Translations under genes and position numbers: made by a program
DNA from: Persephonella hydrogeniphila
Lineage (GTDB): Bacteria; Aquificota; Aquificia; Aquificales; Hydrogenothermaceae
Length of the DNA: 64,000 nt
Direction: 5' to 3'
Assembly (NCBI RefSeq): GCF_900215515.1
Contig: NZ_OBEI01000009.1
Span: 1 to 64,000 of the forward strand
Shown here: one piece after another, positions 27,882 to 38,846 of the stretch
How positions within the stretch are numbered: position 1 is the first letter of the stretch
Layout of the letters: each line of letters begins with the position of its first letter
The notes under the pieces: generated by a model
What the model was told of the DNA's origin: nothing
Seen by the model: only the letters and a program-made list of their open reading frames with translations
Databases searched by the model: none

Positions 27882-27910
27882 TTGACTGTTAATAATCTTG
27901 AACTTATATT
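27882..27910 (+). promoter_or_regulatory. Sigma-70-type promoter of the chemosensory operon
   Basis: TTGACT (27882-27887), 17-base spacer, TATATT (27905-27910), one of the best promoters in the window. The first ribosome site, AAGGAGG, follows about 23 bases later before the ATG at 27946. Confidence 0.75.
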
Positions 27911-27945
27911 CATATAAAAAATTTATACCTCCAAGGAGGGCCAGA

Positions 27946-29820
27946 ATGGGATTTATTACATTTGGGGAAGATTCTCCTAAAAGGAATACATCAGAGTCTC
28001 CATATAAAGAAACTGTGATTCCATCAAAGCCATCTATTACAGATGAAAAAGCCCTTAAAGAAGCCTCTGAACTTCTCCTTTCTAAAGCACAGGAAGGCCT
28101 TGCAGCTATAGAAGAGTTAAAAGGAACTATGGAACAGATAGCTGCAGCAGCTGAAGAAAGCGCTGGAGCTGCAGAAGAAAGTCTAAGTGCTGTTACAGAG
28201 ATAAAACAAAACTCAAAGTTTTTAGAAAAAGAAGCCTCGGAAGTTTTTGAGATAGCCCAGAGACTTGAAGAACTGCTTGACGAGCTATCAAACGATATAG
28301 AAGAGTCCAGTGTGGGTATGAAAAAAACAGCAGATAGCGCTGTAAACATAGCTAAGAAAAGTGAAAAATTATATGAGGCTTCCAAAAACATAACAAATGC
28401 CGTTGAACTTATAACAAAGCTTGCCAAAAAAACATCTCTCCTTGCACTTAACGCAGCTATAGAAGCTGCAAGGGCAAAGGAAAAAGGTAAAAGTTTTACA
28501 GTGATGGCCTCTGAAATAAGGATTATGGCATCAAAGGCAAATAATCATGCACAGGCAATTAAAGAGATAGTAGAAAATATACAGGAAAAAATAAGCACTA
28601 TAAGGGAAGGAATAATAAAAGTGAAGGAAGAGATGGAAGAAGCCTCCCGTTACAGCCTCCAGTCTGCGGACAAGATGAAACAGATTATCAGCTATATGGA
28701 ACAGTTTATGAGAACAATGGATGAGGTGATTTCTTCAATAAACAGGGTAGTAAATGAAATCCAAAAACTCCATCAGGGTTCAGAAACAATAGCTGCAGCA
28801 GCCGAAGAGAGTGCAAGTGCAGTAGCAGAGGTAACCAACACAGTAAGTATGCAGGTACAGGCATTTTCACAGACGGAAGATGCTGCAAATATGATAAAAC
28901 AGCTTGTTTACAAACTTAACTCGGAGGAGAGAGATGCAGTTGCAAATGAGCTTGCCACAGCGTCTGAACAGCTTTCAAGCTCTGTAGAAGAGCTTGAGAA
29001 ATCTATGGAAGAGGTTGTTGAAGCCTTAGAACAGATAGAACAGGCAGCTGAGATATCAAAGAACGATGCTTCAAAGAATGCTATGGTCGCTGAAAAATCT
29101 GTAGAGTATATAACACACTCAAAAGAGCTTGTTGAAAATCTAAAAAACAGATTGGAAGATATCGATAAAGAGTTCCATGAGATTATATCCCTGTTAGAAG
29201 ATGTCAAGAAAAAAGGAGAAAATAACTCAAAAATAGCTCAAGAGAGGAAAAACGAGCTTAACTATGTAAAGTCAAAAATAAACTCGTTAAACAACACCAT
29301 AAGAAAGATAGAACTTGCCATAGTTCAGACAGCTGCTCTTTCTATAAATGGAGCTGTTGAGGCTATCAGGATAGGAGAGTTAGGTGAAGGTTTCAGCGAG
29401 GTGAGTAATGATATAAGAGAACTTGCAACAAGCTCAGAGGAAAACCTTGATAAAGTAGTGGAGATAATAGATGAGGTTCAGGAAGAGAACGATATAATCT
29501 CTGTAGAGATAAACAATATTATACTTACACAGGAAAGGGAAAATGAGAAGCTTCACAGAATAAGCAGTGAGTTACAGAAGAATGTAGAAAGTATAAATAA
29601 AGTTAAAGAAAAGGTAAATCTATTCTTAAAATCTATAGATGAGATGCTTACAGCCCTTGAACAGACAAAGATAGCCTCTGACCAGATAAAAGAGGCTGCA
29701 GAACTGTCCCACAAAAATGTTTCGGAATCAAAGGAAGCGGCTTCTATTATACTTCGTATAGCAAGGGAGATGAACTCTGCTGTACACGGGATATCTGCTT
29801 TTGCAAATACTCTTGTATAA
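27946..29820 (+). CDS. Soluble chemoreceptor with two tandem signalling hairpins
   Basis: 624 residues, all predicted coiled coil, without a membrane helix or an obvious sensory domain. It contains two MCP-type hairpin tips: LLALNAAIEAARAKEKGKSF (about residue 165) and a more divergent LSINGAVEAIRIGELGEGFS (about 465). Each is flanked by heptad helices and Ala/Glu-rich segments of methylation type (AAAAEESAGAAEES, AAAAEESASAVAEV). This looks like an internal duplication. CheR and CheB genes downstream fit adaptation by methylation. The ATG at 27946 is chosen for AAGGAGG eight bases upstream. The second tip lacks several canonical residues and may not engage CheA. Confidence 0.85.
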   Translation: MGFITFGEDSPKRNTSESPYKETVIPSKPSITDEKALKEASELLLSKAQEGLAAIEELKGTMEQIAAAAEESAGAAEESLSAVTEIKQNSKFLEKEASEVFEIAQRLEELLDELSNDIEESSVGMKKTADSAVNIAKKSEKLYEASKNITNAVELITKLAKKTSLLALNAAIEAARAKEKGKSFTVMASEIRIMASKANNHAQAIKEIVENIQEKISTIREGIIKVKEEMEEASRYSLQSADKMKQIISYMEQFMRTMDEVISSINRVVNEIQKLHQGSETIAAAAEESASAVAEVTNTVSMQVQAFSQTEDAANMIKQLVYKLNSEERDAVANELATASEQLSSSVEELEKSMEEVVEALEQIEQAAEISKNDASKNAMVAEKSVEYITHSKELVENLKNRLEDIDKEFHEIISLLEDVKKKGENNSKIAQERKNELNYVKSKINSLNNTIRKIELAIVQTAALSINGAVEAIRIGELGEGFSEVSNDIRELATSSEENLDKVVEIIDEVQEENDIISVEINNIILTQERENEKLHRISSELQKNVESINKVKEKVNLFLKSIDEMLTALEQTKIASDQIKEAAELSHKNVSESKEAASIILRIAREMNSAVHGISAFANTLV

Positions 29821-29830
29821 AGGGTAGGAG

Positions 29831-31180
29831 ATGATAAACATACTGGAGTTTACTGTAAAAGATCTTCTGTTCGGGCTGAGAACTGAATATATAAAGTACA
29901 TATTCGACATTGAGCATGTAAAACCGGCTCCTCTTATGCCTGATTATGTTGCTGGATTTACAGTTCACGGAAAGTATATATATCCGTTGATATGTATGGA
30001 AAAAGTCCTTGAGCTTTCCGAAGAGTGTAGTGATCCTGTCGGAAAAACAGCTATAGCCGTTGATATAGACGGAAATATATACTCTCTTATTGTTGACGAG
30101 ATACTGAAAATTCAGGAAATAGAAGAAACCTCTTCAGAAAATGATGTGGTGAATTTTTATAATCTACAGGGTAGAGTTCTTGAAGAGATCACGCCCCAGT
30201 TTCTTAGGAAGAAAATAAAGTTTCCACCGGTAAAACAGCATGTTGAGACAGATTTTTTAGGAAAAAAAGAGACGCAGAAAAAAGGCGAGATCAGCTTTAT
30301 GATCTTTCAGTTAGGGGATAAGTGGCTTGCAGTAAACACAGATTTTGTTAGAAAAGTAGAGGACATAGAAACTGTAAATATAACTCCAGTTAAAGAAAAA
30401 GAGTGGATAGAAGGAGTATTTTTGGTAAAAGGCGTTCCTGTAAAAGCGGGAAATATGAAAAAACTCCTTGATATAGGTAATTCATCTGGTAGTAATCTGA
30501 TTATTTTGGAAAAAGAGAGGAAATACTTTGGTCTGATTGTTGATGAGATTATTGATATATACACCACCGAAGAAAATAGAATAAACAGAGGAAGCGATAC
30601 AGACTCTATTTTTAAGGATTTCTTTGTTTACTCTAACAGAGCTATTCCTGTTATATCAGAGAGCTTTATTAATGAAGTTTTGGATAAATACTCCCTTGAG
30701 ATTGAAGAAACTGAGGATGAGTTTTTCACAAAGGGCAAAAGCAAAGTTGACATCCTTGTTTTCAGGATCGGAAAAGAAAAGCTTGGTCTTAAGATGGAAA
30801 ATTTAGATGAGGTGCTTGAATTAAAAGAAGTACATTTTAGCAGTTATCCTACAGAAAACGAGTTTGTTAAAGGTATTATAGCAAAGGGTAATGAGTCTTA
30901 CTATCTTATCAGCTATGAATCAGCTTTAAAAGAGAAGATAGACACAGATTCTGAAGATACAAAAATTCTTGTGATAACAGATAAAGGCTTTAAAGTGGCT
31001 GTTTTAATATCAGATATAGAAGATATAATCTCTGTACCTGAGGAAAATATAGCAGAATTAGAAGACGACAGTCTGTTTATAAAAGGTACAGTTATAGACA
31101 AAAAGGGAGGATTACTAAATCTGCTTAATCCACGCTGGATTATCAGCAGGTACGGCAGTACAAAACCTGTAAAAAAATAA
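29831..31180 (+). CDS. Triple CheW-domain coupling protein
   Basis: 449 residues comprising three CheW-like beta-barrel repeats (about 1-120, 150-275 and 300-440). Each has the family order: an opening FxxxxxxxGL strand (ILEFTVKDLLFGL, FMIFQLGDKWLAV, ILVFRIGKEKLGLK), a VxGxxxxxG-type strand (YVAGFTVHGKYIYPL, IEGVFLVKGVPV, VKGIIAKGNESYYL) and a closing xxVDEI segment. Multi-CheW proteins can scaffold receptor-kinase arrays. No CheA is present, so it either serves a kinase encoded elsewhere or connects the receptor to the methylation enzymes. Confidence 0.85.
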   Translation: MINILEFTVKDLLFGLRTEYIKYIFDIEHVKPAPLMPDYVAGFTVHGKYIYPLICMEKVLELSEECSDPVGKTAIAVDIDGNIYSLIVDEILKIQEIEETSSENDVVNFYNLQGRVLEEITPQFLRKKIKFPPVKQHVETDFLGKKETQKKGEISFMIFQLGDKWLAVNTDFVRKVEDIETVNITPVKEKEWIEGVFLVKGVPVKAGNMKKLLDIGNSSGSNLIILEKERKYFGLIVDEIIDIYTTEENRINRGSDTDSIFKDFFVYSNRAIPVISESFINEVLDKYSLEIEETEDEFFTKGKSKVDILVFRIGKEKLGLKMENLDEVLELKEVHFSSYPTENEFVKGIIAKGNESYYLISYESALKEKIDTDSEDTKILVITDKGFKVAVLISDIEDIISVPEENIAELEDDSLFIKGTVIDKKGGLLNLLNPRWIISRYGSTKPVKK

Positions 31181-31192
31181 GGGAGGACTTTT

Positions 31193-32035
31193 GTGGAAGA
31201 TGTATCGTCGGGGAAGCTTAAAAAGCTACGGGATTTTATAAATATGAAATTCGGTATTTATATAGACGATGACAAACTTCTTTCAATGTACAAAAAGAAA
31301 TTTTCAAAGCTGATGGAGCAGTTTGATTATAAAGATTTCTCTTCTTTTCACAGAGATATAGTTTTTAATAAAAATTCTGAGCTGGTAAAAGAGCTTATCA
31401 GTACGGTAACGGTAAATGAGACTTATTTTTTCAGAGAAAAGCACCAGTTTGATACACTTATTAATTATGTTTTACCTGAACTTGACAGGATAAGACCTTC
31501 ATCTGAATCTATAAATATACTGAGTGCCCCCTGCTCTACAGGGGAAGAGGTTTACAGCATAGCTATATATCTTCTTGAAGAGGGAAATTTAATAAAAAAG
31601 AGAAATTTTCTTCTGCTTGGGATAGATATAGACAGCGAAGCTATAAGAAAGGCAAGGGAAGGACTGTATCCTGAAAGAAGTCTGATTAAATTACCTGAAA
31701 ATATTATCAAAAAATATTTTAGGAAAGAAGGAAATCTTTACCGTATATCAGACTTTTTAAGAAGATCTGTTAATTTCAGGGTGGTTAATGTCCTTGATAA
31801 ATATGCTATGAAAAGACTTGGAAAGTTTGATGTCATATTTTCAAGAAACCTTCTTATATACTTTGACGAAAGAAATAGAAGAGAAGCTCTGTCTATATAC
31901 TACAGTATATTAAAAGACGGAGGATACCTTTTCTTAGGACATGCAGAAAGGGTACCTGATGATTTTACATTATTTGAGAAAATTAAGTTGGGAGAAAGTT
32001 ACATTTACAGAAAAGCAGAGGTAAAAGATGGCTAA
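31193..32035 (+). CDS. cheR: Chemotaxis protein methyltransferase CheR
   Basis: 280 residues that methylate receptor glutamates using SAM. N-terminal helical domain (about 1-75), then TVNETYFFREKHQFDTL (about 76-92) and the SAM site NILSAPCSTGEEVYSIAIY (about 104-122), with FDVIFSRNLLIYFDE (catalytic region) and GYLFLGHAER. GTG start with GGGAGGAC upstream. Overlaps the next gene by 8 bases. It lacks the beta-subdomain pentapeptide-binding extension that I would need for tethering to be certain. Confidence 0.93.
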   Translation: MEDVSSGKLKKLRDFINMKFGIYIDDDKLLSMYKKKFSKLMEQFDYKDFSSFHRDIVFNKNSELVKELISTVTVNETYFFREKHQFDTLINYVLPELDRIRPSSESINILSAPCSTGEEVYSIAIYLLEEGNLIKKRNFLLLGIDIDSEAIRKAREGLYPERSLIKLPENIIKKYFRKEGNLYRISDFLRRSVNFRVVNVLDKYAMKRLGKFDVIFSRNLLIYFDERNRREALSIYYSILKDGGYLFLGHAERVPDDFTLFEKIKLGESYIYRKAEVKDG

Positions 32036-34559
32036 TACTGCAGACAAACCCTGTCTGATAGAAGAATGCGTAAAAAACGAACTGTTTTCTGGTGGGAATG
32101 TGGGACTGTTTGTTGTCAAAAACAGTCCCCGCTGGAATTTTGAGGACTGTTCTGAGAATATAGAAGAGATAACCGGATACTCACCACAGCAGATAAAAGA
32201 TAAAAATATAGGTCTTTTGGATTTAGTACATCCTGAAGATAAAGATACACTTATTAAGGATTTTCAAAAAGCAAGAAGAAAAAATGAGAAAGTGTGGGAC
32301 TACAGTAAAGTAAGACTCATCCACAGAGAAGGAAAAACTGTATGGGTATCCCTAAGAATACATTTTGTAGAAAACGAATCAGGGAGAATCCCGTATTTTG
32401 TGGGATACATTGTAGATATAACAGAAGAGGTAGAAAACAGAAAACTGTTTGAGACCTTAACAGATTTCGTTCCGATAGGAATATTCCTTCAGGAAAATGA
32501 AAGATTAATCTATGTGAACAAAAGATCTGTTGATATTGTCGGGTACTTTCCACAGGAGATATACCAGATGGAGAGCTTCTTTAATCTGATACACCCTGAA
32601 GATAGGCATACTGTAAGAAAAATTATAGAGATGAGGGAACAGGGATATAAAGGGGTAATGAGCTACCGTATCCGGTTGATAACAAAAGAAGGTAGACCTA
32701 AATGGGTTCAGATAAACTCTATAACAATTGAATATCAGAACAGAATATTAGGTCTTGGCACAGTTCAGGATATAGACAGGGTTGTCCAGTTAGAGTTTGC
32801 AAAAAATCTGCTTTCTGAGATAAACAGAATGATGCTTTCTATAAGAGACAGGGACTCCCTTCTTGAAGGTGTGTGTGAAATATTTAAAGAATATGGAGAG
32901 TTTAGAGGGATTGCTGTTTTCAGAGTGGAAGATAACAGACTTTCGCCTGAGTGTATGTACAGCAGAAATAACTTTTTAAGTAGATTAGAAAATGTAGATA
33001 TCCCAGAAAAAAGAATACTAAAAATTAAAAAACCGCTTTATCTGAAGGATATTGAGGGGCTAAAAGATTTTGATAGCTGGAAAGAAATTATGAGAAAAAA
33101 TGGTGTAGATTCCCTTATGTTGCTTCCAGTTATAGTTGATAAAAAACTTGAGTATGTCATATCTGTGTACATACACGGAAAGGATTACTACATGGATGAT
33201 GTTTTAGATGTTTTCAGCGAGATATCCAAAGATATATCCTTTGCTATGAAACATATTAAGCAGGAGGAGGATCTGTTTTACAAGGAGTTTTTTGATTCTG
33301 TTACACAGGTAGGAAACAGAACATACCTGCTGAAAACCCTTGAAAAATATACCAGTAGAGGAAGAGCTTTTTATCTTATCGTGGCAGATATATACAACTT
33401 CAGATATATAAATGAAAAGTATGGTAAAGAGTTTGGAGATAAGCTTCTTAGAGAGTTAGCCCAGAAACTTGATAAACAGCTTGTCTATGAGAACGTGTTC
33501 CGTATAGGGAGTGATGAGTTTGCTATAGTTTCTTATGCAACGGATATTTATAGTGTGGTAAATAAAATAAAAGATATTTTTGAAGATATATCTATAAATA
33601 ATAAAAGATTATCTGTTGGTTTCAATCTGGGAATTGTCAGGTATCCAGATGATGGAGAGGATATCAATGAGCTTCTGATAAAAGGAGAAAGAACTGTAGA
33701 AATCGCTAAAAAAGAAGGAAAAAACAAGATAGTGTTTTTTGACAGGGAGAAATATGAGACGGTTGTCCAGACTATATCTATTGAAGAGCAGTTAGAAAAA
33801 GCTATAAAAAAAGATGAGTTTATCCTTTACTTTCAACCTATACTGTCTGTGAAAAATAACAGTATCAAAGCTTTTGAGGTTCTGATAAGATGGAAAACAG
33901 AGGATGGACAGATAGTTCTCCCTGAAAAGTTTATACAGGTTGCAGAAAGCACAGGTCAGATTAAAGAGATAGACAAAATTGTGGTGCTAAAGGTTCTGAA
34001 ACTTATTAAAAAAATAGAAAATAAGAAGATAAAATTCCCTTCCAAAAAAGGCAGATTCAAGAATGTATCAAGGGTTAAATTCTCCGTAAATATAACCCCA
34101 AGATTTATAAAGGAATTTGTCAGTTTTCTTACAGGTTTAACAGAAGAAGACAGAAAAATCCTCAGTAAAAATGTTGTGATAGAGCTCACAGAAAGGGAAT
34201 CCTTCGAGGTTTATACAGAAAAAGAAAGTATAAATAGACTTAAGAAAATGGGATTCAAGATCGCTATTGATGATTTTGGAACAGGATACTCCTCTTTAAG
34301 CTATATATCGGAACTCAAAATTAACTATCTGAAAATAGACAAAATATTTATAAATAAGATGCTTTCAGACAGAAGAGTACACAGACTCGTCCAGTCTATA
34401 ATTAATATTGCCAGAACATTTGGAATAAAAACTGTTGCAGAAGGGGTAGAAACGAAAAGACAGTTGGAAGAGCTAAAAAAGTTAGGATGTGATAAATATC
34501 AGGGCTACTATTTCAGTCCACCTGTATCACAGGAAGAGTTTGAAAAGTATATAGGGTAG
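32028..34559 (+). CDS. PAS-PAS-GAF-GGDEF-EAL cyclic-di-GMP signalling protein
   Basis: 843 residues, cytoplasmic. Two PAS/PAC repeats (about 20-140 and 145-260, each with YSPQQIKDK/YFPQEIYQM and a WVSLRI/WVQINS strand), a GAF-like domain (about 270-415), a GGDEF domain whose active loop is GSDEF (about 494) and an EAL domain with EVL at the signature (about 617), IELTE, IDDFGTGYSS and AEGVET. The intact metal-binding EAL residues suggest c-di-GMP hydrolysis; GSDEF may retain weak cyclase or GTP-sensing function. Its place between cheR and cheB links the receptor system to c-di-GMP. Confidence 0.88.
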   Translation: MANTADKPCLIEECVKNELFSGGNVGLFVVKNSPRWNFEDCSENIEEITGYSPQQIKDKNIGLLDLVHPEDKDTLIKDFQKARRKNEKVWDYSKVRLIHREGKTVWVSLRIHFVENESGRIPYFVGYIVDITEEVENRKLFETLTDFVPIGIFLQENERLIYVNKRSVDIVGYFPQEIYQMESFFNLIHPEDRHTVRKIIEMREQGYKGVMSYRIRLITKEGRPKWVQINSITIEYQNRILGLGTVQDIDRVVQLEFAKNLLSEINRMMLSIRDRDSLLEGVCEIFKEYGEFRGIAVFRVEDNRLSPECMYSRNNFLSRLENVDIPEKRILKIKKPLYLKDIEGLKDFDSWKEIMRKNGVDSLMLLPVIVDKKLEYVISVYIHGKDYYMDDVLDVFSEISKDISFAMKHIKQEEDLFYKEFFDSVTQVGNRTYLLKTLEKYTSRGRAFYLIVADIYNFRYINEKYGKEFGDKLLRELAQKLDKQLVYENVFRIGSDEFAIVSYATDIYSVVNKIKDIFEDISINNKRLSVGFNLGIVRYPDDGEDINELLIKGERTVEIAKKEGKNKIVFFDREKYETVVQTISIEEQLEKAIKKDEFILYFQPILSVKNNSIKAFEVLIRWKTEDGQIVLPEKFIQVAESTGQIKEIDKIVVLKVLKLIKKIENKKIKFPSKKGRFKNVSRVKFSVNITPRFIKEFVSFLTGLTEEDRKILSKNVVIELTERESFEVYTEKESINRLKKMGFKIAIDDFGTGYSSLSYISELKINYLKIDKIFINKMLSDRRVHRLVQSIINIARTFGIKTVAEGVETKRQLEELKKLGCDKYQGYYFSPPVSQEEFEKYIG

Positions 34560-34570
34560 GAGGTTGTCCT

Positions 34571-35659
34571 TTGAAGAAAAAAGTTCTTGTTGTTGATGAC
34601 TCGGCACTTGTAAGGAGAATTCTCACAAAAATACTTACAGATATGGGGTTGGAAGTAGACACAGCAAAAGATGGGAAAGAGGCTGTGGAAAAAGCTCTTT
34701 CAAAAGATTACGACCTTATTACAGTGGATATTGAGATGCCCCATAAGAACGGTATTCAGGTTATAAAAGAGATAATGGACAGAAAGCCGACGAGAATTCT
34801 TGTTATCAGTGCCTACACTACAGAAGATGCCCAGCTTACTCTGGAAGCTTTAGATAACGGAGCCCTTGGATTTATCACAAAGCCTTCAAAGATTGGAACT
34901 TCTTTACAGCAGATAGAAGAAGAGATAAAACAGAAAGTAAGTGAGATACTGAAAGTGCCAAAGTTTAAAATACTGATGAACAGAAAAAAAGCATCAAAGC
35001 TAAAAGAAGAGTTTTTAAATCTGAAAAGTATAGATACCGGCAGTTACGACCCGAAGGAAGATTTAAAGTACATTCTTATAGGAGCCTCTACAGGAGGACC
35101 CCGATTAATAGAAACAATAGCTGTAACTCTACCGGAAAATTATCCATATCCAATATGTGTAGTCCAGCATATGCCTGTTAATTTTACAAAAAAGTTTGCT
35201 GAAAGACTTAACTCTCTAAGTAAATTAAATGTTGTTGAAGCATCTAACGGGGAAGAAGTTGTTCCGGGAAAAATGATAATAGGTAAAGGAGGATGGCATC
35301 TGCATTTTTCCAGAAGATCAACAGATAACACAGTTATATGTAAACTGGCTCCAAATACAGCAGGGAGGTTCTTTGTACCATCTGTAGACGAGATGTTTTT
35401 CTCAGCCCTTGAGGTTATTGACCCGAAAAAAATAATGGCTATACTTTTAACAGGAATAGGTGATGATGGGGCAGACGGTATGGTGGCTTTAAAAAAAGCC
35501 GGAGCGTACACTATAGCAGAAAGTGAAGAAACAGCAATAGTGTACGGGATGCCAAAAGAAGCTTATTTAAGGGGAGGTGCCACGAAAGTTCTTCCTTTTC
35601 CTGAGATAGTAAAAGAGATTCTTAGATTTGGAGCCAGAGATGAGCTTCAAAAAGTTTGA
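34571..35659 (+). CDS. cheB: Chemotaxis methylesterase CheB
   Basis: 362 residues. N-terminal receiver domain (VVDDSALVRRIL, phospho-acceptor Asp in LITVDIEMP about residue 56, Thr/Ser in VISAYT, Lys in FITKP) joined to a methylesterase with catalytic Ser in GASTGGP (about 175), His in VVQHMP and Asp in TGIGDDGADG (about 299). The receiver normally takes phosphate from CheA, which is not in this window. TTG start at 34571 with AGGAGG upstream. The end overlaps the next gene. Confidence 0.95.
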   Translation: MKKKVLVVDDSALVRRILTKILTDMGLEVDTAKDGKEAVEKALSKDYDLITVDIEMPHKNGIQVIKEIMDRKPTRILVISAYTTEDAQLTLEALDNGALGFITKPSKIGTSLQQIEEEIKQKVSEILKVPKFKILMNRKKASKLKEEFLNLKSIDTGSYDPKEDLKYILIGASTGGPRLIETIAVTLPENYPYPICVVQHMPVNFTKKFAERLNSLSKLNVVEASNGEEVVPGKMIIGKGGWHLHFSRRSTDNTVICKLAPNTAGRFFVPSVDEMFFSALEVIDPKKIMAILLTGIGDDGADGMVALKKAGAYTIAESEETAIVYGMPKEAYLRGGATKVLPFPEIVKEILRFGARDELQKV

Positions 35660-36260
35660 GGAGCAGAAGATACACAGATTTAAGGATTTTGATGAGGCAA
35701 AGGTTTATATAGAGGATATGAATAAAGATATAAATCTGACCTTTGAAGCTATAGATTACATGGTAAGTAGAAAAGAGTACCATTTCCTATTAAAAAACCT
35801 TGTAAGGCAGTTTTATAATAGTGGAGGAAGTCCTCAACTCTTTGATTACTTTTTCTCAAAATTATCAGACTGTCCCGGAAGGAAAACAGATATAGAGATT
35901 TACTTTAAGATATTAGAGTCTCCTAATAAAACCCTTAAAAGCTCTTTTACAGGTTATCTTAAAGCATGTGCTGAAAAGCTATATCCGTTTATTATGGATA
36001 TGCTAAGAAGCAACGAGGCAGAAAAAAGAAAGATGGCTGTATGTATTCTCCGTCATTTACCCTCAGAAGAGGTAAAAGAGAAGATAGTAAGCATGATAAA
36101 AACAGAGGAAGATAAAACTGTTATGGAAGAGATTGTAAAATATTTGGAGATATATGCATTTGAAGAGAATGTAGACTGTTTAAAATTTATAAATGAAAAA
36201 TTCCCTGAGTTCGATAAAAAAGTTCAAAATATACTGAGAAATATAAGAGATGATGAGTAA
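35640..36260 (+). CDS. Helical (HEAT-like) protein at the end of the chemosensory operon
   Basis: 206 residues, predicted all-helical, with repeat-like helix pairs (about 105-200: YPFIMDMLRSNEAEKRKMAV, LPSEEVKEKIVSMIKTEEDK) that suggest HEAT-type protein interaction. No catalytic motif. I chose the ATG at 35640, six bases after GGAG, within the cheB 3' end. Its stop overlaps the ATG of the truncated sir2 gene. HEAT proteins occur in some chemosensory clusters; the precise partner is unknown. Confidence 0.65.
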   Translation: MSFKKFEEQKIHRFKDFDEAKVYIEDMNKDINLTFEAIDYMVSRKEYHFLLKNLVRQFYNSGGSPQLFDYFFSKLSDCPGRKTDIEIYFKILESPNKTLKSSFTGYLKACAEKLYPFIMDMLRSNEAEKRKMAVCILRHLPSEEVKEKIVSMIKTEEDKTVMEEIVKYLEIYAFEENVDCLKFINEKFPEFDKKVQNILRNIRDDE

Positions 36261-36489
36261 AGAGCAGATAAACGATCAGATACAGAAAGCCAGAGATGTT
36301 TTAAGGGAAGCTGATGCAGTTTTGATTACTGCCGGGGCAGGAATGGGAGTTGATAGTAGTCTACCAGATTTCAGGGGAGTTGAGGGATTCTGGAGAGCTT
36401 ACCCGATCGCAAAAAAATTAGGTCTCAGGTTTGAAGAACTTGCCAACCCCAGATGGTTCAGGGAAAATCCAAAGCTGGCATGGGCATAA
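36250..36489 (+). pseudogene. sir2 5' fragment, interrupted after 79 codons
   Basis: The start of a Sir2-family gene: helix-containing N-terminus, then the NAD-binding GAGMGVDSSLPDFRG (about 30-44) and WRAYPIAKKLGLRFEELANP, ending at a stop right after the ALAWA region. The zinc cysteines, the catalytic His and the C-terminal Rossmann half are missing. The ATG overlaps the preceding gene's stop, so this is probably the original start of the native gene. Bases 36328-36485 recur at 38070-38227 with one mismatch, marking a recombination junction. Confidence 0.85.
36328..36485 (+). repeat. Left copy of 158-bp direct repeat inside sir2
   Basis: 158 bases identical to 38070-38227 except at 36358 (A here, G at 38100). 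Sequence before the repeat is clearly diverged between the copies though it encodes a similar protein; sequence after it is unrelated. Confidence 0.95.
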
Positions 36490-37994: not shown

Positions 37995-38846
37995 ATGTTT
38001 GAAAGAAAGTTGAATAATGAAATTCAAAAAGCAAAAGAAGTATTACAAAATGCAGATGCCATTCTTATAACTGCCGGGGCAGGAATGGGAGTTGATAGTG
38101 GTCTACCAGATTTCAGGGGAGTTGAGGGATTCTGGAGAGCTTACCCGATCGCAAAAAAATTAGGTCTCAGGTTTGAAGAACTTGCCAACCCCAGATGGTT
38201 CAGGGAAAATCCAAAGCTGGCATGGGCTTTCTATGGGCACAGATTAAATCTATACAGAAAGACCAAACCCCATGAAGGTTTTTATCTTCTAAAAAAATTA
38301 GGAGAAAGAAAGAAAGGAGGATATTTCGTTTTCACATCAAATGTTGATGGACAGTTCCAGAAGGCAGGTTTTGACGAAAAAAGAATAGTAGAAATTCATG
38401 GCTCCATTCATCATCTCCAGTGCACAGTTCCCTGTATGGATGATATATGGTCTGCAGACGGAATAGAAATAGATATTGATATGGAAAAATTTGAAGCAAA
38501 GGAGCCATTACCACTGTGCAGACACTGTAAAGAGATAGCAAGACCAAATATTTTGATGTTTGGTGATTGGGAATGGATTTCCCACAGAACTGCCGGACAG
38601 GAATTTCTATTTGAAAGATGGTTAGAGAAGATAGATGATATGGGGTATAATCTTGCAATTATTGAGATAGGAGCAGGTAAAGCCGTCCCGACGGTAAGAA
38701 TGCTCTCTGAAAGGGTAGCTGATAATTTTTATGGAACATTAATCAGAATAAACCCACGGGATTATGATGTTCCTTCTTCCAGACATATATCAATCCCCCT
38801 TGGTGGTCTTGAAGGTATCAAAAAGATAATAGAGGGAATTCTTTGA
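37995..38846 (+). CDS. Sir2-family NAD-dependent deacylase, hybrid copy
   Basis: 283-residue complete Sir2-type protein. NAD motifs GAGMGVDSGLPDFRG (about 29-43), TSNVDGQF with Asn/Asp, the catalytic His in HGSIHHLQC, a zinc site from CTVPC-type and CRHCKE cysteines and RPNILMFGDWEW. It should remove acyl groups from lysines or act as an NAD hydrolase. Its first 25 codons differ from those of the truncated copy upstream, whereas the next 158 bases are nearly identical. No good ribosome site precedes the ATG. The product is probably a recombinant of a foreign 5' end and the native 3' end. Confidence 0.88.
   Translation: MFERKLNNEIQKAKEVLQNADAILITAGAGMGVDSGLPDFRGVEGFWRAYPIAKKLGLRFEELANPRWFRENPKLAWAFYGHRLNLYRKTKPHEGFYLLKKLGERKKGGYFVFTSNVDGQFQKAGFDEKRIVEIHGSIHHLQCTVPCMDDIWSADGIEIDIDMEKFEAKEPLPLCRHCKEIARPNILMFGDWEWISHRTAGQEFLFERWLEKIDDMGYNLAIIEIGAGKAVPTVRMLSERVADNFYGTLIRINPRDYDVPSSRHISIPLGGLEGIKKIIEGIL
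38070..38227 (+). repeat. Right copy of 158-bp direct repeat inside sir2
   Basis: Partner of 36328-36485, one mismatch. The copies are 1742 bases apart, so a crossover between them would delete the insertion and restore an uninterrupted native sir2. Confidence 0.95.

Follow-up and report, generated by a model that had tools for sequence, protein, structure and literature searches.

The operon on the forward strand at 27946–36260 of the window (the whole 64,000-nucleotide stretch of Persephonella hydrogeniphila DNA analysed here) is a member of the kinase-less “partial F9” chemosensory class. It possesses a double-signalling soluble receptor of the F9 type (DosM) and a CheW3, and it carries dosM, cheW3, cheB and cheR without the cheA and cheY that a full F9 cluster contains. 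The first-pass annotation had correctly noted the absence of CheA and CheY, and neither gene is found in the operon or adjoining it, but it missed that this is the known F9 class, with its DosM and CheW3. As to function, there is in our estimate an even chance that DosM and CheW3 would form a kinase-free lattice whose state is adjusted by methylation and linked to the breakdown of c-di-GMP, with cross-talk from the flagellar (F14) kinase through CheB as a possible addition; this mechanism is one that we infer from comparing sequences.

Table 1. Features of the partial F9 operon in the window, with the evidence for each.
Feature	Position	Strand	Evidence
Promoter (candidate, consensus match) and RBS	27882..27939	+	Sequence and consensus scan
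DosM-type soluble chemoreceptor, 624 aa	27946..29820	+	Pfam MCPsignal, two tips, no TM, model
DosM tip 1, near canonical (KKTSLLALNAAIEAARAKEKGKSF)	28423..28530	+	Alignment with F9 receptors and the genome's other receptors
DosM tip-2 region (ALSINGAVEAIRIGELGEGF)	29254..29523	+	Alignment; same alignment used for multi-genome profile scan
CheW3, 449 aa	29831..31180	+	Pfam, model, PDB matches, alignments
CheW3 domains 1, 2, 3	approx. 29831–30210, 30287–30690, 30743–31155	+	Pfam, model
CheR methyltransferase	31193..32035	+	Pfam CheR, E 1.4e-56
PAS-PAS-GAF-GGDEF-EAL protein, 843 aa	32028..34559	+	Pfam (GAF weak), alignment
CheB: receiver and methylesterase	34571..35659	+	Pfam Response_reg and CheB methylesterase, alignment
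HEAT-like protein	35640..36260	+	Weak HEAT_2 match; position as in full F9 operons

The ORF list gives six tightly packed genes in the same direction, and those previously read as encoding CheR, CheB and a GGDEF-EAL protein were all matched by Pfam. The strong promoter proposed for them is weakly supported: a TTGACT-17-TATATT match from the consensus scan (27882–27910) lies 35 bp ahead of the DosM ATG, with a good RBS (AAGGAGG, 27933–27939) downstream of it, but shuffled sequence yields matches of this type at least as often as the region does. The last gene likely starts at ATG 35640, where the ORF list has TTG 35628. Its product matches HEAT in Pfam below the cut-off and aligns to the HEAT protein of full F9 operons with an hhalign probability of 25%; because this homology is weak, the HEAT-like identity rests on position together with weak HEAT similarity. 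Directly 3′ of this gene lies the 5′ fragment of a Sir2-type deacylase gene (36252–36489, ~79 codons and then a stop), with an intact paralogue at 37995–38846. Between the two are a zinc-ribbon/HTH transposase-like ORF and two small ORFs resembling, by look, DUF4258/DUF2283, and the region looks like an insertion or duplication scar.

DosM contains several Pfam MCPsignal stretches, no predicted transmembrane segments and two tips (LLALNAAIEA and ALSINGAVEA) 300 residues apart. Its AlphaFold model (pLDDT 88) consists of long helical hairpins, with helices at residues 34–176, 178–325 and 329–623 that make up two signalling hairpins (34–325 and 329–623), which agrees with the earlier description of a soluble receptor with two hairpin tips. 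The second tip is divergent, as had also been remarked, but this is normal for F9 since full F9 receptors share the divergence in our alignments. The tip-2 region is nevertheless highly conserved among kinase-less F9 receptors, with 83–92% identity among the Hydrogenothermaceae sampled. Several kinase-less DosM sequences begin with MGFxxF(E) and several HEAT-like proteins with M(G/S)FxxFEE or MFKKF; these N-termini may share a short docking motif.

Full F9 systems (V. cholerae cluster I, PMC7534058; Aquificaceae; proteobacterial plasmids) share with the window the double-tip soluble receptor, the triple CheW, CheB and CheR, the core gene order and, in most operons, a HEAT-repeat gene, but differ in possessing their own CheA and CheY and in keeping R62 in nearly every CheW domain. 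The F9 signature, the two-layered cytoplasmic F9 array and array formation without CheA are all known from V. cholerae (PMC7534058). Partial F9, defined as dosM, cheW3 and cheBR without cheA/cheY, was published in 2022 for Nitratiruptor, Nautilia and Aquificota (PMC9321776), and the window operon agrees with it both in this gene set and in that the genome has only one cheA, which belongs to a different class. The part of that paper available to us, unlike the window, includes no GGDEF-EAL or HEAT-like gene in the set; it reports that no informative residue variation was found, and mentions neither the loss of R62 nor the loss of the CheB phospho-site, both found here.

A profile search with the tip-2 region, covering one genome per species from 84,980 species, returned ten loci, all from Hydrogenothermaceae, Desulfurobacteriaceae, Nautiliaceae or Campylobacterales. 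In a scan of the phylum, CheW3 was present in 27 of 136 Aquificota genomes. No cheA was seen at the loci of nine Hydrogenothermaceae genomes (including this one) and three Desulfurobacteriaceae genomes, and the Desulfurobacteriaceae genome G133 possesses two copies of the module; all eight Aquificaceae loci examined have their own CheA near CheW3, and CheY where the contigs reach far enough. A FastTree phylogeny of DosM and CheW3, rooted on proteobacterial full F9, joins the kinase-less sequences into one group beside Aquificaceae, with a long branch of 1.5 substitutions per site leading to it. We do not claim this grouping as well supported because its label is 0.306 and labels may have shifted on re-rooting. 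The Marinitoga plasmid pMO1 was considered as an independent kinase-less F9 and rejected: its receptors have one tip each and are predicted to contain membrane segments, and no E/R pair is lost from its CheW3. On the stretch of this plasmid from Marinitoga okinawensis (L096, OX370180.1), which has no CheA, the triple CheW is accompanied by two membrane MCPs, a diguanylate cyclase and an HD-type c-di-GMP phosphodiesterase; here too triple CheW is linked with c-di-GMP, but without the F9 receptor.

CheW3 is a triple CheW, as the first-pass annotation had it, with three Pfam CheW stretches, three CheW-like units in the AlphaFold model (pLDDT 82.6) and CheW and CheA as top PDB matches. A CheW capable of kinase control carries a conserved arginine (R62 in E. 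coli, NLRG), which in E. coli is required for function and dispensable for assembly; the window CheW3 aligns Gly, Lys and Gly at this position in domains 1, 2 and 3. Across the kinase-less CheW3 alignments, R62 is kept in 0/18, 1/18 and 6/18 sequences for domains 1, 2 and 3, compared with 15/16, 15/16 and 16/16 in full F9, and Lys replaces it in domain 2 of nine of the 18 and in domain 1 of one. Correctly framed F14 CheW, CheV and CheA-P5 sequences sampled as a control keep R62; this control excludes the loci from G092 and G129, and its sequences from G064 and G082 are of CheV-like and CheA-P5-like type. Loss of the whole E38–R62 pair was dropped as a marker, and only R62 is taken as evidence, because the F14 CheW of this genome, like that of other Hydrogenothermaceae, has Lys at E38. 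Kinase-less CheW3 is divergent overall (28.5% of Aquificaceae-invariant residues kept), and the residue losses probably reflect one or few ancestral events rather than 18 independent ones. On the megaplasmid of Ruegeria sp. TM1040 (L105, NC_008043.1), a triple CheW with E/R pairs kept in all three domains neighbours CheR and CheD, and an IS3-like element comes next; no CheA is annotated in the stretch read.

The receiver of the window CheB has the acidic pair, phospho-Asp, Thr/Ser and Lys of a domain under phosphorylation control all intact in the alignment, and the same is true of all eight Hydrogenothermaceae operon genes. This implies some kinase input and, since the protein looks phosphorylatable, makes cross-talk from the F14 kinase possible. 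In two of the three kinase-less lineages the receiver is degraded: the phospho-Asp is missing in 4/4 Desulfurobacteriaceae genes, and the three Nautiliaceae proteins, in which an Asp aligns at the phospho-site, have an incomplete or absent acidic pair and lack the remaining phosphorylation-site residues together with part of the domain. CheB tracks the kinase-less module, being present in every module-bearing genome and few others. In Hydrogenothermaceae it occurs in 9/9 module-bearing and 6/24 module-less CheA-positive genomes (hypergeometric probability about 1e-4, calculated by hand with phylogeny and MAG gaps ignored), and in Desulfurobacteriaceae in 3/3 module-bearing and 0/16 module-less CheW-positive genomes (about 1e-3, again ignoring phylogeny and MAG gaps). 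The only other CheB gene of this genome lies in a CheB-HEAT-CheR mini-cluster on contig C1 (C1:308,000–310,400; L032:4008–6402) without receptor, CheW or kinase, which is probably the residue of an older operon copy because the genes on either side of it are those that flank the complete kinase-less operon in four other genomes (G092, G088, G082 and G087).

The operon's EAL domain is a predicted-active phosphodiesterase, with the catalytic residues E(A/V)L, N, E, DD, K, E and Q present in the alignment, while its GGDEF motif reads GSDEF and lacks the signature of an active diguanylate cyclase; the second Gly is replaced in seven of eight homologues, in which the EAL residues are present. Most of the proteobacterial plasmid operons examined have the full F9 order DosM-CheW3-CheB-HEAT-CheR-CheY-CheA (those of Rhizobium and Novosphingobium are without the HEAT gene). 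Five Persephonella operons read DosM-CheW3-CheB-HEAT-CheR-GGDEF-EAL, so that the enzyme gene occupies the CheY-CheA position; in G091, one of the five, contig ends truncate DosM and the final gene. In the window and two close relatives (G086, G069) a probable orthologue lies between CheR and CheB. An EAL gene also immediately precedes each of the two G133 modules and a Campylobacterales module (L087); compared with the EAL proteins that were read correctly, these match other genes best. The G128 module shows no adjoining EAL gene, and at several further loci the sequence stops before any neighbours would appear. A single EAL adjacency is weak evidence because this 2-Mb genome has about 22 EAL genes; that such genes recur at differing positions carries more weight. 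A protoglobin-PAS-GGDEF-EAL protein (L070:15473–18148) is encoded two genes before one of the G133 modules, hinting at an oxygen or gas input. In Wsp-type systems, a CheA-type kinase acts on a receiver-GGDEF protein and the output is c-di-GMP. The window operon would resemble these in tying chemosensory proteins to c-di-GMP enzymes, but it contains no kinase and its GGDEF-EAL protein no receiver domain.

The lines of evidence on kinase INDEPENDENCE are thus the state of R62, the state of the CheB receiver and the co-occurrence of CheB with the module. In the mechanism we propose, DosM and CheW3 would build a kinase-free lattice in the cytoplasm, with a methylation state determined by CheR and CheB, and readout would occur as the lattice clusters or gates the PAS-PAS-GAF-GGDEF-EAL protein, which would act mainly as a c-di-GMP phosphodiesterase; the proposed output would therefore be the c-di-GMP level and not CheY phosphate. 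Through phosphorylation of CheB, the F14 kinase of Hydrogenothermaceae may still adjust the module, an input that has probably been lost in the Desulfurobacteriaceae and Nautiliaceae versions. The first-pass annotation had left two routes standing, from the scaffold to c-di-GMP or methylation, or through a kinase encoded elsewhere. A kinase elsewhere does exist, but the loss of R62, the decay of the CheB receiver in the sister lineages and an EAL gene where CheY-CheA would otherwise be all speak for the c-di-GMP route that needs no kinase. Counting against this route are the intact Hydrogenothermaceae CheB, the one CheA per reasonably complete genome, the number of EAL genes, the module without an adjoining one and the overall divergence of kinase-less CheW3.

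That kinase, exactly one CheA in a search of the genome, belongs to the flagellar F14 cluster on contig C4, together with CheZ, CheR, CheW, a CheV-like protein, CheY and receptors; no CheB is present in this cluster. A CheA elsewhere that serves the operon was what the first-pass annotation had set against its own proposal, and this is half borne out, because the CheA exists, with a CheY and a CheW, and nothing links it to the operon. No second CheA was found in any kinase-less genome searched; the only module-bearing genome found without any CheA (G128) proves nothing because it is only 83% complete. The authors of PMC9321776, in the part available to us, propose that partial F9 cooperates with the CheA of another system; DosM and CheW3 would then recruit the sole CheA of the genome, that of F14, and signal via its CheY. 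This is possible but, in our view, rather unlikely. The lone CheA beside the module in every reasonably complete genome, the intact Hydrogenothermaceae CheB receiver and the E38/R62 pair kept in domain 3 of 6/18 kinase-less CheW3 all agree with it, but domains 1 and 2 are without R62 while the F14 CheW keeps it, and two of the three lineages have a degraded receiver. Less probable still is a one-way arrangement in which the output of the module is kinase-free and the F14 CheA contacts it solely through CheB, so that the state of flagellar chemotaxis sets DosM methylation: the intact receivers in 8/8 Hydrogenothermaceae and an F14 cluster without its own CheB fit this, but it is inapplicable to Desulfurobacteriaceae or Nautiliaceae with their degraded receivers. 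Decay of a full F9 system into a remnant with no present function, which the missing CheA and CheY and the existence of the C1 mini-cluster without DosM or CheW3 might suggest, is very improbable given intact ORFs in the window and the relatives seen (contig ends apart), the conserved tip-2 region and intact catalytic residues in CheB and EAL.

Chemosensory arrays are usually understood as devices controlling CheA. Array signalling without phosphotransfer would be demonstrated by a clade in which receptor, CheW and methylation enzymes persist while the kinase and the CheW arginine are gone, as is the phospho-site of CheB in two lineages. It is possible, though in our estimate less likely than not, that in three vent-associated lineages a receptor/CheW lattice has dropped its histidine kinase and directly controls c-di-GMP turnover while keeping methylation adaptation, as a chemosensory pathway whose output is free of phosphotransfer. 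The partial F9 puzzle is now testable, as the published model of a borrowed kinase and the c-di-GMP model make opposite predictions.
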